In this document: one piece after another, positions 19,036-25,160 of the stretch
Position numbering within the stretch: position 1 is the stretch's first letter
Layout: every line of letters begins with the position of its first letter
IMG/VR virus record: IMGVR_UViG_3300042345_000683
Span: 1 to 28,934 of that record
Strand: one strand, 5' to 3'
Source: a virus
Length of the DNA stretch: 28,934 nt
The notes under the pieces: model-generated
What the model saw: only the letters and a program-made list of their open reading frames with translations
Databases searched by the model: none
What the model was told of the DNA's origin: nothing
Program-made: the position numbers and the translations under genes

Positions 19036-22000
19036 TTAACGCATGCCCACTTTACGACGAGCAGAAGGAGAATTCTGAAGCTTGTCTAAGGCTAGCGAAG
19101 CCCCACGATTGGCACCGTCACGAGCAGCCATTTTACGGGTTTCAGCCATTGCCGCTTGTAGCTGTGCCACATCCACGTATTCCCTGTCGCCAAATTTAGT
19201 GGTTTGGAAGCTCATGGAGAGCACAGGAGAAGAAGATTGTTGACGGGCGTTGTCTGAGAGCAAGTCACGAGAAGACTGACCACGCATTTGCACGGGAATG
19301 CTCTTGCCATCGGGAAGAGGAACAATGGCTTCGTTGTACTTGCCTTCGCCTACAAGACCGAGAGTGGGACCAGAGACAACGCCACCATTAGCGAAGGCAC
19401 GGAAACCGCCAGAAGCAATGCCACCATTTGCAAAACCTGCAAAATTCGGGGCCATATTCCCAGCCGCATCTGTATATTGCCGCATAGGAGCAAGAGTGCC
19501 TTCTGTAATGCCAAATTTTGACATGTCTGCTCCACCGCCTCCTCCGAGTCCCGCAAACATTTTTGCAATGCCAATGGCGATATAAGTGGAGATCATTTGT
19601 GAAGCAGCTTGAGACAATGATTGACCAACACTTTGTAAGAAATTGGCAAACACTTCTTTTGCGGTGGCAGTGCCGCTAATCATATTTACTATGCCTTCAG
19701 TCAAAACATTAGCAAAAGCAGAACTAACTCCTTGAATGGCACCTTGTAGCCCTTCAAAAACACTACGAAGCTGCATTGCTGTCGTTTCAACGTTAGCAAG
19801 CTGAGTGGCATAGTCTCTGTCTCCATATCGTGCCATTGCTTGTTCAAACACGCTGGAAGCTTCTCCTGTGAAGCCAGCTTGCAAGCCCCCTCCAATTAAA
19901 CCAAGTCCAGTTTGCGCTTCTCTAAGATTTTTCGTTTTCTCTAGGTTTTCTTTTAGTCGCGCTTCTTCCTCTGATAAAACCTGAACAGCTTGTGCCTGTT
20001 GCCTAAGTTTTTCAATGTAGGGACCAACAATTTTTAACTGTTTTTCTGTGAGTCCTGTCGTTTCGCGTTTAATTTGCGCCTCAATTTTTTCTGACTCGGA
20101 AAGATTTTCTTGCCCCACCGTTAAAGCGGCGATGCTATCTTTTAATTCATTGGTTTTGTTTTCAAAGGTATCAGATCGTCCGATAAGATCTCCTAGTAGG
20201 GCTTTTCGGTATTCTGCTGTGACATTTTCTCTCGCCAATACAGCAGCATTTTGCATTGAGGCTTGAGCAGTGCCACGCTGAGCCTCCTTGTACTCCCCTA
20301 GTGTTTTAATTGCGGCTTGATACTGAGCCTCAACAATGTCGAGGCCATATTCATAGTCTAACTCTGCTTTTGCTAGTTCTTTCTGAGAGGAAGTAAGATC
20401 TGACTGTGCGTCTACAAGTGTTTTCTGGAGAGCAAGGCGCTCCCTAAGCACTTTTGTTTCGTCTTCCGCGAAATCCTTAAGCTCTTTTGCCTTCTTCGCT
20501 TTTTTTCCTTTGCCTCCAGCGGCATCTAAGCTCATGCCTGCCCCTGGCCCGCCAAAAGTAAAATCCTTTCCGCCAGGAGCGGAAGCGGCGTCAAGAGCAG
20601 CTTGGCCACCAGCAGCAGCAAATTGAGCCTGAAGCTGCTGACGCCTCGTCTCTAGTGGGCTCTGCGCGGCACCTCTCCTTCTTCCTCCAGTTTGACCAGC
20701 AGCAATTTGAGCATTTACTTTGTCAAGCTCAGCCTTTATCTCAGCCACTCCAACCATGCCAAGCAAACGCCTTATCTCCCTAATAGCGCCACTGAATGCC
20801 CTTGTAATTGCTGTGCTAACTTGCACAGCAACTTTCAAAATACTTCCAACAATTCTGGCAAAATCCGTTGCCAGAACGGCCCAGTCTCTAAGATACTGCG
20901 CAATAAATTCTTTGTTTTGATTCGCCCAGTTGCTAAAACCAGAAATCGTTTCAGCAAAGAAATCTTGAAATACTGCGCCCGCTGGCCCTAACGCAGATCC
21001 AATAGCAATCTGCATGTCATTCATCGCCTTCTCAAGGCGACGCCCAGCAAATTCAGGACCAGTCGCTAATCTCTCTGAAAACTTTGCATAGTCTTCGTAA
21101 TTCTTTTTAGCGAAATCAACAAAATCGCCAACTGTTACCTTGCCTTGCTCAAGTGCGCCTTGCAGCTCATCAAAGCTCATTTTGTTTGCTTGCGCAAACT
21201 TAACCACGGCCCCAGGGAATCTTTCTCCTAATTGACCGCGAAGCTCTTCTGCTTGTACGCTGCCCTTGCTGAAGATTTGCACCACTGCTCGCATGGCACC
21301 ATCAACATCTTCCATGGAGCCACCAACGGAAGATACGGCCAATACAACACCTTCTAAAATTTGCTGAGTTTCTTGAACACTTAGTCCGTACTGTTTGGTA
21401 TTAACCCTCAATTGAGTGAATTGACGATACACCCGTTCAATGGGGACCACGAGGGTATTACTACTTTCTGCGATTGCTTTTTGCGCCTCAGCAAAATCGG
21501 CAGCGTCAATGGAAGCGAGAGCGAGTCCACGTTGCAATTGTTGAATGGTCGCAGCGGTGTTTGTTACGCCTGCAGCCATTGTGCCAAGATTATCTGCTAG
21601 CTGACCAAAAGCAGCGCCTGCAAATGCTCCAGGAACGCCTCCCATTAAACCGCCAGCAATGCCGCCAACGGCACTGCCAACGCCGCCTCCTAAACCTCCG
21701 CCATATAAGAAAGCACCACCAGCGGCTCCTAGGCGTTGTCCACCAGTAAGAGGGCGACGAGTTTGTTTTTCAATGCCTCCTTCTACACTGACAATCTCCT
21801 TATTAAGCTGCTTCCACTCTGTAGTATCAGGAGCAATTTCTCTAGCTCTATTACGCAATACAATAAGTTTTGCTTCAAGAGCATTTAAACTGCCAGGCGC
21901 AAATGCGCCTAGGCTTTCTTGCATTTGAATGCTTTCAGCGAGGCGATCTGTCGCTTTGAGCTGGGAATTGATTTGTCCAATTTGCCTTTGCAAATCAATC

Positions 22001-22416
22001 CAAGGCGCCGTATTCGGCGCCAATTGCGAAGCTTCAATTCGAGCTGCTTGCAACTCTTTGTTTAGACGGACAAGGCTTGCTTCGTCAAAAGATTGCGCTT
22101 GCCCGCGAAGGCGCAATGGCTCAGCAGCAAGCTGACCGCGCTCTCTTTGGCCTTCTCTAAAACCCAAACTAGCAGCAGTAGAACGAAAAGCCCCTGATCC
22201 AATTTGCAAGCGAGAAAGCTTGCGTTGCATGTTTTCTATCTGCTTATCTAACTGCCTAAATGTTGCATTCAAATCCGCCTGTAAAGGAGCAGCATCAAGC
22301 GTGATTTTTACGCTTTTGCCAGTGCGAGCTACTTGAGCTACTTTTCTATTGACCTCTTCAATTTCACGAATAATTCTGCTGGCATTAGTCGTAAAATCAA
22401 TCGTATAACGTGCCAT
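19036..22416 (-). CDS. Tail tape measure protein
   Basis: An 1126-residue protein. It has long helical N-terminal stretches (IIREIEEVNRKVAQV and further), a glycine-rich hydrophobic block near residues 222-275, and the tape-measure N-terminal core motif AEELRGQLGERFPGAVVKFA near residue 395. Long coiled coils follow (EDETKVLRERLALQK, QRGTAQASMQN). The C-terminus has FANGGVVSGPTLGLVGEGKYNEAIVPL, a frequent ending in tape measures. It sets tail length: at 0.15 nm per residue, about 170 nm, which fits a long siphovirus tail (family rule plus inference). Start ATG overlaps the previous stop by 1 nt. Confidence 0.93.
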   Translation of the reverse strand: MARYTIDFTTNASRIIREIEEVNRKVAQVARTGKSVKITLDAAPLQADLNATFRQLDKQIENMQRKLSRLQIGSGAFRSTAASLGFREGQRERGQLAAEPLRLRGQAQSFDEASLVRLNKELQAARIEASQLAPNTAPWIDLQRQIGQINSQLKATDRLAESIQMQESLGAFAPGSLNALEAKLIVLRNRAREIAPDTTEWKQLNKEIVSVEGGIEKQTRRPLTGGQRLGAAGGAFLYGGGLGGGVGSAVGGIAGGLMGGVPGAFAGAAFGQLADNLGTMAAGVTNTAATIQQLQRGLALASIDAADFAEAQKAIAESSNTLVVPIERVYRQFTQLRVNTKQYGLSVQETQQILEGVVLAVSSVGGSMEDVDGAMRAVVQIFSKGSVQAEELRGQLGERFPGAVVKFAQANKMSFDELQGALEQGKVTVGDFVDFAKKNYEDYAKFSERLATGPEFAGRRLEKAMNDMQIAIGSALGPAGAVFQDFFAETISGFSNWANQNKEFIAQYLRDWAVLATDFARIVGSILKVAVQVSTAITRAFSGAIREIRRLLGMVGVAEIKAELDKVNAQIAAGQTGGRRRGAAQSPLETRRQQLQAQFAAAGGQAALDAASAPGGKDFTFGGPGAGMSLDAAGGKGKKAKKAKELKDFAEDETKVLRERLALQKTLVDAQSDLTSSQKELAKAELDYEYGLDIVEAQYQAAIKTLGEYKEAQRGTAQASMQNAAVLARENVTAEYRKALLGDLIGRSDTFENKTNELKDSIAALTVGQENLSESEKIEAQIKRETTGLTEKQLKIVGPYIEKLRQQAQAVQVLSEEEARLKENLEKTKNLREAQTGLGLIGGGLQAGFTGEASSVFEQAMARYGDRDYATQLANVETTAMQLRSVFEGLQGAIQGVSSAFANVLTEGIVNMISGTATAKEVFANFLQSVGQSLSQAASQMISTYIAIGIAKMFAGLGGGGGADMSKFGITEGTLAPMRQYTDAAGNMAPNFAGFANGGIASGGFRAFANGGVVSGPTLGLVGEGKYNEAIVPLPDGKSIPVQMRGQSSRDLLSDNARQQSSSPVLSMSFQTTKFGDREYVDVAQLQAAMAETRKMAARDGANRGASLALDKLQNSPSARRKVGMR

Positions 22417-22928
22417 CAGCGGCGCCCTCCTTGACGAAGCATACTTTCAATAATCCCTTCAATTTCGTCTAAAGTGGGCTCGGTCCAAGGGCGAGCTGGC
22501 AGCCGCTTATTGGATTTGCTAACCATGCCGTCATGTACGCCTTCTGCCACTTCATCATCCCAAATAAATTCAACAACTGAATTACCAATCTGCTCCCTTC
22601 GTTTACTTTGCAGCAATGCGCCAGTATCAATAATGTCCCTAGGGCTATTAACTACTTGTCCATTCTTTCTTCGCGTTTCATTTGGCCAGTCCCATTTTTC
22701 GCTTGTCATTTGCTGGTCAAAATCGGCATCAGCCCAATCCATTGCTCTTTCAAAAGTGCGACCGTTAATGCCCCTTAGTTGACGAAGCTCGTTTCCTTCA
22801 TATTCAGTTATTTGCGCACCAGCGAACCGCCTTGCGTTTCTTGACAATGCAGATAATCCATCAAGAAGTCTGCCAATTGCGCTATCAGCTCGAAATGCAT
22901 TACTCTCAAAGCGAAGCTGATAGGCCAT
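22416..22928 (-). CDS. HK97 gp10-like minor tail / tail completion protein
   Basis: A 170-residue protein with a SPRDIIDTGALLQSKRRE segment, a VEFIWDDEVAEGVHDG segment and PARPWTEPTLDEIEGII at the end. This order (DTG-x-L-x-S, then A-x-x-VHxG, then RPWT) resembles HK97 gp10-like and related tail proteins. Such genes often lie upstream of the tail tube gene; here it lies between the tail chaperone and the tape measure. It overlaps the tape measure start by 1 nt. The exact role is uncertain. Confidence 0.6.
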   Translation of the reverse strand: MAYQLRFESNAFRADSAIGRLLDGLSALSRNARRFAGAQITEYEGNELRQLRGINGRTFERAMDWADADFDQQMTSEKWDWPNETRRKNGQVVNSPRDIIDTGALLQSKRREQIGNSVVEFIWDDEVAEGVHDGMVSKSNKRLPARPWTEPTLDEIEGIIESMLRQGGRR

Positions 22929-22964: not shown

Positions 22965-23375
22965 TCAACTAAGTTCAGCGCCAATCATGCCTACAATTGC
23001 GGCTGGCAGCTTCTCATTTTTTAAGGCCCACTCAAGCGCTTCTTTTGTTGATGGCTTCAATGAAGACATGCCATCATCAAGCTCGTAAGGCAAAAATTGG
23101 TCCAACTTTACCTTGCTGCCCTTTGCCCCTAGTGCTCCCATCACAACCATTGCTAACTTCGCAGTGCTAACACTTGCCGCATTTGTTCTTGCTTGCAAAG
23201 TTTTATAGCTTTTTTCAAGAACATCCGCAATCAACTTGACGGGAAGACGGGCGAAATTACCTGCTTGAAATAATGGATCGGCTAGTTGCAATGAAGCTAT
23301 TTGGCAATATATTTCCGTCCAATCAGTGGCATTATCAATAGCTTCGTCGGCTTGCTTTGCAAGCCGCTCTATTAG
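22965..23375 (-). CDS. Tail assembly chaperone, frameshift-accessed T part
   Basis: An open frame of 136 codons, reached by a -1 shift at A AAA AAC (23375-23381) near the end of the upstream gene. It then reads through CTA ATA GAG without a stop to the stop at 22965. The product would be a 309-residue fusion, as in lambda gpG-gpGT. The sequence (ADPLFQAGNFARLPVKLIADVL, MVVMGALG, EALEWALKNEK) is helical. Without frameshifting the only early starts are TTG codons; the first ATG is far inside, which supports shift-only expression. The tape measure follows after one gene, matching the usual placement of this pair. Confidence 0.75.
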   Translation of the reverse strand, partial: LIERLAKQADEAIDNATDWTEIYCQIASLQLADPLFQAGNFARLPVKLIADVLEKSYKTLQARTNAASVSTAKLAMVVMGALGAKGSKVKLDQFLPYELDDGMSSLKPSTKEALEWALKNEKLPAAIVGMIGAELS

Positions 23376-23381
23376 TTTTTT
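23348..23381 (-). other. Programmed -1 ribosomal frameshift site
   Basis: The slippery heptamer A AAA AAC (23381-23375) is in the correct phase of the upstream gene (codons AGA AAA AAC TAA). An 8-nt spacer (TAATAGAG) is followed by a perfect hairpin CGGCTTGC-AAA-GCAAGCCG (23366-23348; 8-bp stem). The zero-frame stop immediately follows the heptamer. Confidence 0.85.
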
Positions 23382-23893
23382 CTTCCTTCCTCCTCTGACT
23401 CTTGTTCTTTATCACTTTCTTGCCCCCCATCTTCAATAGCCATAAAAGCTTCCACTTGCTCTAGCCATGCTTGTGGAAGTTTCTGCGTGTCTTCAATGGT
23501 CCAATCATCAGTGGCCGTCCATTTCTTGCCGCTAAGAATTTCACCACGATTGCGGAAAAAGATAGTAATTAACTCACCAAATTGCTCCCGTGCAGAGGGC
23601 ATACTACTCATTAATGCCATAGCCTCTTCTGAATACTCCGACAAAATACTTTCCCCCTCATTGTTTCCTTGAAGCATTGCAAACGCTTCGTCTTGATCTA
23701 CTTCTTTTTCAATGGCAATTTTCTTTGCCAATGCAATGGCTCGCAAAGTGAACTGCGCTCGTTTCTGTCCCTGCTCTTCGCGTTTCCACGCTTCTTCCGC
23801 AAGCCAACTGCCAAACTTGCGGAGCCTTAGGCAATCGCCAATATTCTCGTACTCTGCGTCGCTAAGCAGAAAAATGCTCGAATACTTGCTCAT
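23372..23893 (-). CDS. Tail assembly chaperone, gpG-like
   Basis: A 173-residue helical protein with an acidic, low-complexity end (QESDKEQESEEEGRKN). It lies between the tail tube region and the tape measure, and its last codons hold the -1 frameshift site. Together these identify it as the short form of the tail assembly chaperone pair that coats the tape measure before tube polymerisation. Its sequence alone has no motif I recognise. The acidic tail lies just before the junction and would act as a flexible linker in the fusion. The start is 8 nt after the preceding stop. Confidence 0.75.
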   Translation of the reverse strand: MSKYSSIFLLSDAEYENIGDCLRLRKFGSWLAEEAWKREEQGQKRAQFTLRAIALAKKIAIEKEVDQDEAFAMLQGNNEGESILSEYSEEAMALMSSMPSAREQFGELITIFFRNRGEILSGKKWTATDDWTIEDTQKLPQAWLEQVEAFMAIEDGGQESDKEQESEEEGRKN

Positions 23894-23901
23894 GATCTTC
23901 T

Positions 23902-24120
23902 CTATTGCAGAAAGAGTCTAGCATTGGCAATTCGCAACGGCACTCCACTATTAATTGCCTTTAAAGGCAAGCAAGCCTCAATTTTTTTATCCTTGTAAAT
24001 AAAAACTGCAAAGGCTGGGCATTGAGAAAGAAAGCAGGCTAGGCCAGCCTTGATTGATATATCATCCACTTCTGCATCAAACAGCCAGATTTTCTCGCAA
24101 CTGCTTTTTAAAACTTTCAC
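23902..24120 (-). CDS. Hypothetical 72-residue protein, GTG start
   Basis: A small protein (KIWLFDAEVDDISIKAGLACFL, then FAVFIYKDKKIEACLPLKAI). No family was recognised. The start is GTG 24118-24120, overlapping the stop of the upstream gene in a GTGA arrangement (24117-24120), so it is likely translated by coupling. Its position between tail terminator and chaperone suggests a tail assembly role, but nothing in the sequence shows what it does. Confidence 0.6.
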   Translation of the reverse strand: MKVLKSSCEKIWLFDAEVDDISIKAGLACFLSQCPAFAVFIYKDKKIEACLPLKAINSGVPLRIANARLFLQ

Positions 24121-24581: not shown

Positions 24582-25160
24582 TCAGCTATTAGGAGCAGAA
24601 GGAATGATCGAACCAGTTTCAGAGGCATTCTGGTGGATGCCAATGCGGCCACGGCTAATCAAATCGAAGGTGCATTCCACGAGGTTATCAGCAGGATAGC
24701 TCTCGTTGTAGTTCATCACGCAAGCAGTAAAGGCCACGCGATCATAATAATAAGTCGTGCCAGAAGCGCCAAGCTGCTTGTTAATTTCCACGTACACTTC
24801 GTGGTTTTTGTCATAGCGCGAGGCGGTAATCACCTGGAACGCTTCATCAAAACTATTGGGCAGGAACACAGTGCCATCAACGTCCTTTTGGAAGTAGGAA
24901 GTGACAGAAGCAGTGGCTTGGCTGGTAACGATCACGCTATCAGCGAAACCGCCGCCGCCCAGCAGATAGAATTCTTGGTTGCCATCGTTAAAGGCAACAG
25001 AAGCCGTAGTAGCGGCTTGCAGGGTATAAAGGGTGGGAGCGCCGCTCACGGTGAAGGTAGCGCCGCTCTGGGTGATCACAGGACGTGAAGTTCCGTTGAT
25101 CGAGCCAACACGCACAATCACGTCTTGACTCTTCACCAGCTCCGTAGGATGGTAAAGCAT
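24582..25160 (-). CDS. Major tail tube protein
   Basis: A 192-residue beta-rich protein. Its placement is that of the tail tube: after the head-tail connectors and before the tail chaperone and tape measure. The C-terminal half contains EVYVEINKQLG, YYYDRVAFTACVMNY and LVECTFDLISRGRIG, a strand order found in tail tube proteins, and the last motif recurs in the 310-residue tail protein at 12595. It is followed immediately by a strong terminator, as expected for a highly expressed structural gene. Confidence 0.75.
   Translation of the reverse strand: MLYHPTELVKSQDVIVRVGSINGTSRPVITQSGATFTVSGAPTLYTLQAATTASVAFNDGNQEFYLLGGGGFADSVIVTSQATASVTSYFQKDVDGTVFLPNSFDEAFQVITASRYDKNHEVYVEINKQLGASGTTYYYDRVAFTACVMNYNESYPADNLVECTFDLISRGRIGIHQNASETGSIIPSAPNS

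Follow-up and report, generated by a model that had tools for sequence, protein, structure and literature searches.

When a phage gene lies in a different frame from the gene that it overlaps and offers no evident start of its own, how is its product made, and what does the resulting pair of proteins do? The question arises on the minus strand of the window analysed here, the whole of an IMG/VR virus record (28,934 bases), where a G-like gene and a T-like gene overlap in this way. Tail chaperone frameshifting is textbook biology and is found in many phages, and the original prediction for this locus was that an unusually clean, textbook -1 frameshift joins the two genes of a tail assembly chaperone. 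We consider the source phage very likely to be a picocyanobacterial siphophage, because it shares 86.8% identity in the major capsid protein with Synechococcus phage S-CBS4.

The G/T overlap and its proposed translation

The overlap contains these elements:

23372..23893, minus strand: G-like gene in the zero frame, with ATG at 23893, translating to 173 aa followed by TAA
23389..23394, minus strand: internal Shine-Dalgarno-like AGGAGG in the sequence, 7 nt upstream of the heptamer
23375..23381, minus strand: slippery heptamer A_AAA_AAC, the putative slip site, whose first A is codon position 3, the correct phase for a -1 shift
23372..23374, minus strand: zero-frame TAA in the sequence, directly 3' of the heptamer
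23348..23366, minus strand: hairpin with an 8-bp stem and a 3-nt loop, seen in the sequence and part of the predicted MFE fold
22965..23381, minus strand: T-like gene in the -1 frame, with 136 codons after the heptamer and then TGA (22967-22965)

The G-like protein has an acidic C-terminal tail that ends ...EEEGRKN, and the zero-frame end of its gene reads ...GGA AGA AAA AAC TAA. Reading the sequence directly, we found the heptamer in the correct phase with the zero-frame stop next to it, as had been predicted, and we likewise confirmed the predicted 8-nt spacer (23374-23367) and the perfect 8-bp hairpin, whose arms (23366-23359, CGGCTTGC, and 23355-23348, GCAAGCCG) enclose an AAA loop (23358-23356). 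The shifted frame stays open for 136 codons to 22965 and would give a fusion of 309 residues (173 + 136); every number in that part of the prediction holds.

We propose that the T-like domain is made only as the C-terminal part of this 309-residue fusion. Most ribosomes would synthesise the 173-residue G-like protein and stop at the TAA at 23374-23372. A minority would pause at A_AAA_AAC, with the hairpin ahead of them and the AGGAGG that they have just passed pairing with the anti-Shine-Dalgarno sequence of 16S rRNA. The tRNAs on AAA AAC would then re-pair with AAA AAA, one base back, and translation continuing in the -1 frame would yield the GT fusion as a minority product. From this layout we infer slippage itself, its efficiency and the role of each stimulator.

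Conservation of the putative slip site among relatives

The sequence AAAAAAC occurs four times on the two strands of the window, against 8.1 occurrences expected, which is not above chance, and we rejected the heptamer count as evidence by itself. The local fold is only mildly unusual (101-nt fold of the region, z -1.83; equal or greater stability in nine of 200 dinucleotide shuffles), and for these two reasons we examined relatives. They came from four IMG/VR scans, for which the queries were the G and T proteins and alignments of these, and from the S-CBS4 record. The starting set comprised 130 loci and the window, 131 sequences in all. We removed the window's own piece (L001), dropped three sequences without a G match and three in which G is cut by a contig end (L059, L102, L107), and collapsed the remainder to 70 distinct junctions, namely the window, S-CBS4 and 68 from IMG/VR. 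These relatives share ancestry, such that counts over them are not independent. L064 ends too soon to include T or to be folded, which leaves 69 junctions in the fold test; L001, L026 and L038 were skipped in one of the comparisons. Two pairs of G/T alignments were made from hand-picked sequences, one of 26 chosen for spread (the window and 25 of the 70) and the other of 21. A GTDB genome scan for prophage copies gave 175 pattern matches, none of them a relative.

The G-like protein is conserved in all 70 distinct junctions, with 50-94% identity in the aligned subsets and 34% for S-CBS4, and the T-like protein is conserved in the alignments of relatives. An X_XXY_YYZ heptamer in the right phase is found in every one of the 70 junctions, and from it the -1 frame continues without a stop codon beyond the end of the zero frame. 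T was detected in 69 junctions (L064 ends too early) and occupies the -1 frame in each of them. The heptamer is AAAAAAC in 37 junctions, CCCAAAG in 20, CCCAAAA in 11 and AAAAAAA in two; AAAAAAG was found in none of the 70. As a control, we recoded the zero-frame overlap synonymously with the codon usage of the family, and an in-phase heptamer appeared in 1794 of 14000 recodings (12.8%), as against 70 of 70 in the real sequences. The decisive evidence is this conservation of the heptamer, not its presence alone. The check originally suggested, alignment of related phages, thus bears out the slip site: we found neither a relative that lacks an in-phase heptamer nor one with the shifted frame closed.

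The surroundings of the heptamer are also constrained. TAA follows it directly in 36 of the 37 A_AAA_AAC junctions. In the same group the preceding codon ends in A in 37 of 37 cases while encoding R, G, E, S, A or P, and in the C_CCA_AAR group it ends in C in 31 of 31 cases while encoding A, D, G, V or S. Given that the last base of this codon is fixed while the residue varies, selection appears to hold the base that enables slippage rather than the residue.

The anatomy of the site stands as predicted, but to call it unusually clean and textbook is too simple. According to PMC5009743, A_AAA_AAC shifts far less readily than A_AAA_AAG in E. coli, and C_CCA_AAG is highly shift-prone; the hairpin of the window is found in 28 of the 70 junctions, and relatives carry other heptamers. 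Distant relatives have swapped the heptamer to C_CCA_AAA or C_CCA_AAG. The A_AAA_AAC heptamer has precedent, because HCTV-2, a haloarchaeal virus and in that respect different, is reported in PMC5009743 to use it as the shift site of its tail g-t gene pair. In addition, an insertion-sequence cluster with A_AAA_AAC is presented as a proven case in an E. coli motif study (PMC4066793).

Putative stimulatory elements on either side of the slip site

The AGGAGG element, absent from the original prediction, lies where the protein has its Glu-rich tail. Among the 26 nearest sequences, Glu is encoded by GAG in 17 of 21 cases at codon -4 and 13 of 19 at codon -5, versus 201 of 544 elsewhere in G, and by GAA in 15 of 18 cases at codon -2 and 18 of 21 at codon -3. 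For pairing we used the bacterial anti-Shine-Dalgarno sequence, which we take to be that of the host. At spacings of 4-11 nt the mean pairing energy over the 70 junctions was -8.71 kcal/mol, versus -6.71 kcal/mol (sd 0.32) for recoded sequences, and none of 100 control sets was as strong as the real junctions; in a separate recoding test of the Shine-Dalgarno-like signal, none of 200 control sets reached the observed value. Pairing of -8 kcal/mol or stronger is found in 47 of the 70 junctions and is not universal. These comparisons indicate that the Shine-Dalgarno-like element is kept beyond the needs of the protein.

Downstream of the heptamer, the 51-nt stretch folds with z -2.8, and none of 100 synonymous recodings was as stable. 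The motif CGGCTTG-N5-CARGCCG is present in 28 of the 70 junctions, with the 8-nt spacer in all 28, and other clades are without this motif. The hairpin is a clade trait: the expectation that its pairing would be conserved in related phages fails for the family as a whole and is borne out, as constraint at the RNA level, within that clade. Over 23 distinct rows, 97.8% of positions in the eight stem pairs are paired; six pairs are invariant, one is either U-A or U-G, and four rows lack the innermost pair. We rejected covariation as evidence, given that no pair has changed on both sides and that shuffles equal the observed value, and used synonymous constraint instead.

The codon table for full-length T covers 27 of the 28 hairpin sequences. 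These 27 clade members share 27 invariant residues that have at least four synonymous codons, and only R6 (CGG), L7 (CTT) and A11 (GCC), whose wobble bases are paired in the stem, are encoded by a single codon throughout. By contrast, all four alanine codons occur at A8, whose wobble base lies in the loop. Eight different residues (K, R, Q, G, A, M, E, S) are found at codon 9, but 24 of 28 sequences have G at its third position, where it closes the stem by pairing with the innermost C. Of the A_AAA_AAC relatives, nine lack the motif; among these, L7 is encoded by five different codons and R6 by CGG in 9 of 9, and the constancy of the R6 codon is therefore not specific to the hairpin. Selection on RNA pairing is the best explanation for the pattern of codon choice as a whole.

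The predicted MFE fold of the 51-nt stretch is another structure in three of the 28 hairpin sequences (L041, L043 and L047). Grouped by heptamer, the mean fold z is -2.64 for AAAAAAC (n=37), -2.49 for CCCAAAA (n=10), -1.58 for CCCAAAG (n=20) and -0.47 for AAAAAAA (n=2), a comparison that is confounded by ancestry. A role for the hairpin as a terminator was rejected: a terminator scan calls none there and no T-run lies downstream. An Rfam search returned only a chance match (E 4.1).

Two variants of the stem were seen among the relatives. L070 (1006-1060) combines A_AAA_AAA with an 8-bp stem, GCGGCTTG-AAA-CAAGCTGC, built from the same codons in a shifted pairing register, and this stem is possibly a re-invented hairpin. 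In L014, L015, L016 and L017, T codon 5 is GAT rather than GAG and codon 12 is GAT in all four, such that the stem has 10 pairs; this is a possible coordinated change.

Given that a Shine-Dalgarno-like element, the heptamer and the hairpin are all present, the signal in the window is tripartite like the E. coli dnaX cassette, in which an upstream Shine-Dalgarno-like element and an A-rich heptamer are likewise combined with a downstream stem-loop. The dnaX heptamer, however, is A_AAA_AAG and its shift leads to a shorter product (PMC5009743), whereas the window has A_AAA_AAC and its shift would lead to a longer product. We suggest that the window signal works like dnaX but is not a dnaX cassette. 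Both types of stimulator were reported in nine of 69 clusters in the E. coli motif study (PMC4066793).

These elements help to weigh two other ways in which T could be expressed. RNA polymerase might slip on the A-run, which is A6 in the window and A7 in some relatives (e.g., L010, L017 and L021), and so produce a mixed mRNA pool in which some transcripts fuse G and T; transcriptional slippage is known in bacteria and viruses, as PMC5009743 notes. Nevertheless, 31 of the 70 junctions have C_CCA_AAR, with three or four As in a row, a sequence that suits tandem tRNA re-pairing and not polymerase slippage, and the conserved Shine-Dalgarno-like element and the hairpin at a fixed 8 nt would act on ribosomes. 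Moreover, A6 is shorter than the runs usually needed for transcriptional slippage, and we regard this explanation as very improbable. Slightly less probable still is that T is translated alone, by re-initiation at an internal start such as the TTG at 23291. This codon would open a 108-aa ORF (22965-23291), and in the S-CBS4 record the 3' portion of T has its own ORF annotation. The claim that T has no good independent start is nonetheless upheld by the relatives: TTG is kept at that codon in only five of the 28 in the hairpin clade, and no start codon within T codons 3-69 is common to all 28, the commonest being a TTG at codon 37 (23 of 28), which is TTA in the window. In addition, the protein from the heptamer to codon 31, upstream of the TTG, is conserved, and independent translation would leave the in-phase heptamers in 70 of 70 junctions unexplained. 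The comparative evidence strongly supports a -1 programmed frameshift, and we hold with high confidence that this locus uses programmed -1 ribosomal frameshifting in a gene pair of the lambda tail assembly chaperone type.

Gene context, probable chaperone function and possible exchange of slip sites

The neighbouring genes are:

24582..25160, minus strand: gene that probably encodes the major tail (tube) protein, by a match to phrog_1407 (major tail protein, E 7e-4); relatives also have it upstream of G
23902-24120, minus strand: 72-aa ORF just upstream of G, its position conserved in IMG/VR relatives
22416..22928, minus strand: 170-aa gene between T and the tape measure gene, with a homologue following T in 67 of the 70 junctions
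19036..22416, minus strand: tape measure protein gene (PF20155 TMP_3, E 1.5e-25; TIGR02675; PHROG tail length tape measure)

Judged by these profile matches, the identification of the tape measure gene appears firm and that of the tube gene weaker (E 7e-4). The 72-aa ORF at 23902-24120 has no family match in Pfam or PHROGs. The full order of tube gene, 136-aa gene, 72-aa gene, G, T, 170-aa gene and tape measure gene is found in 47 of the 70 junctions, and 22 more have the same order with at least one end gene undetected, mostly at contig ends. S-CBS4 differs in the position of its homologue of the 170-aa gene, which lies upstream of G, and is without a match to the 72-aa gene; two further contigs have no match to the 170-aa gene before their end. 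A tape measure homologue is found downstream in 62 of the 70 junctions, and the other eight have no match before the contig end.

The label of tail assembly chaperone fits this position and the architecture of the gene pair, but no chaperone family model in Pfam, PHROGs or NCBIfam matches G, and a search of the same three collections with T gave nothing significant for a chaperone. Of 21 G members, 17 match phrog_17098 (best E 1.8e-4), a 43-position family of unknown function that does not help to name the protein. In a few distant relatives T has sub-threshold matches to phrog_337 (best E 0.0032) and Phage_tail_T (PF06223; best E 0.013), the families that lambda T itself matches with E 4.7e-7 and 2.1e-14, respectively. 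Homology of T to lambda T is a lead suggested by these sub-threshold matches, not a result. Alignment with hhalign to lambda G and lambda T gave probabilities of 0.1% and 3%, which are not significant, comparison of G and T with PDB profiles gave chance matches only, and AlphaFold models of G and T (pLDDT 46.8 and 49.8) were too poor for a fold search.

As in lambda gpG/gpGT, two genes lie near the tape measure gene, an X_XXY_YYZ heptamer stands near the end of G, and T occupies an overlapping frame. The heptamer, however, is GGGAAAG in lambda and AAAAAAC in the window, the tape measure gene H follows T directly in lambda whereas a 170-aa gene intervenes in the window, and, relative to the lambda proteins, G has no detectable homology and T has sub-threshold similarity only. 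Synteny and architecture make a chaperone function of the lambda gpG/gpGT type the best reading, and it is on this analogy that we infer it. G would then coat the tape measure protein and the T part of the fusion would recruit tail tube subunits, given that lambda G binds the tape measure protein and lambda T the tube protein (PMC5009743), and because of these two roles the G:GT ratio would matter for tail assembly. Alternatively, the frameshift may be real and the pair may be another tail protein with a fused form. The lack of a chaperone family match for G and the gene that separates T from the tape measure gene, unlike in lambda, would fit such a protein; against it, 62 of the 70 junctions have a tape measure homologue downstream, S-CBS4 has its tape measure gene directly after T, and T weakly matches the lambda T families. 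We consider this alternative unlikely, and favour a frameshifted chaperone pair.

Tail chaperone frameshifting as such is known, and PRFect counts 2397 annotated cases of it in the SEA-PHAGES set (PMC10885494); what the present comparison would add is a well-resolved signal and an apparent exchange of heptamers. We found no paper on this frameshift in S-CBS4-like phages in the open-access literature, and the main text of a paper on S-CBS4 relatives (PMC6157547) contains neither "frameshift" nor "chaperone". For the S-CBS4-like cyanosiphophages, the locus provides a G/GT frameshift that is well supported and had not been annotated, and two hypothetical protein families gain a likely role.

A broader reading, possible although on balance doubtful, is that the slip site has been exchanged within one gene family, between A_AAA_AAC and C_CCA_AAG or C_CCA_AAA, and that the stimulators have changed with it, such that the G:GT ratio is held constant by compensation. 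On such a reading, the weak A_AAA_AAC would be combined with a rigid, GC-rich 8-bp hairpin at a fixed distance and with the Shine-Dalgarno-like element, and C_CCA_AAG with a stronger Shine-Dalgarno-like element and weaker structure. If this is true, the family is a natural experiment on the tuning of frameshift efficiency in cyanobacteria. Graded heptamers and stimulators in one gene would allow studies of frameshift tuning in cyanobacterial hosts.

The nearest cultured relative, S-CBS4, encodes G and T as gp032 and gp033, with T (27% identical) in the -1 frame. Its sole in-phase heptamer is A_AAA_AAA, which ends 39 nt before the zero-frame stop. After the heptamer the zero frame is basic and the -1 frame reads KKIEEEGEGGCLAERIEKQ, such that the acidic linker is encoded in the -1 frame in S-CBS4 and in the zero frame in the other phages. 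The layout of the S-CBS4 fusion is apparently unchanged while the slip site has moved. The tape measure gene directly follows T in this phage, and the homologue of the 170-aa gene upstream of G (L002, 4339-4704) represents a local change of gene order in the tail module. In the S-CBS4 record (L002, 5070-5971), G begins 23 residues too late, at a codon within the gene, the annotation of T covers its 3' portion only and starts inside T, and the fusion is unannotated, with gp032 and gp033 entered as separate hypothetical proteins.
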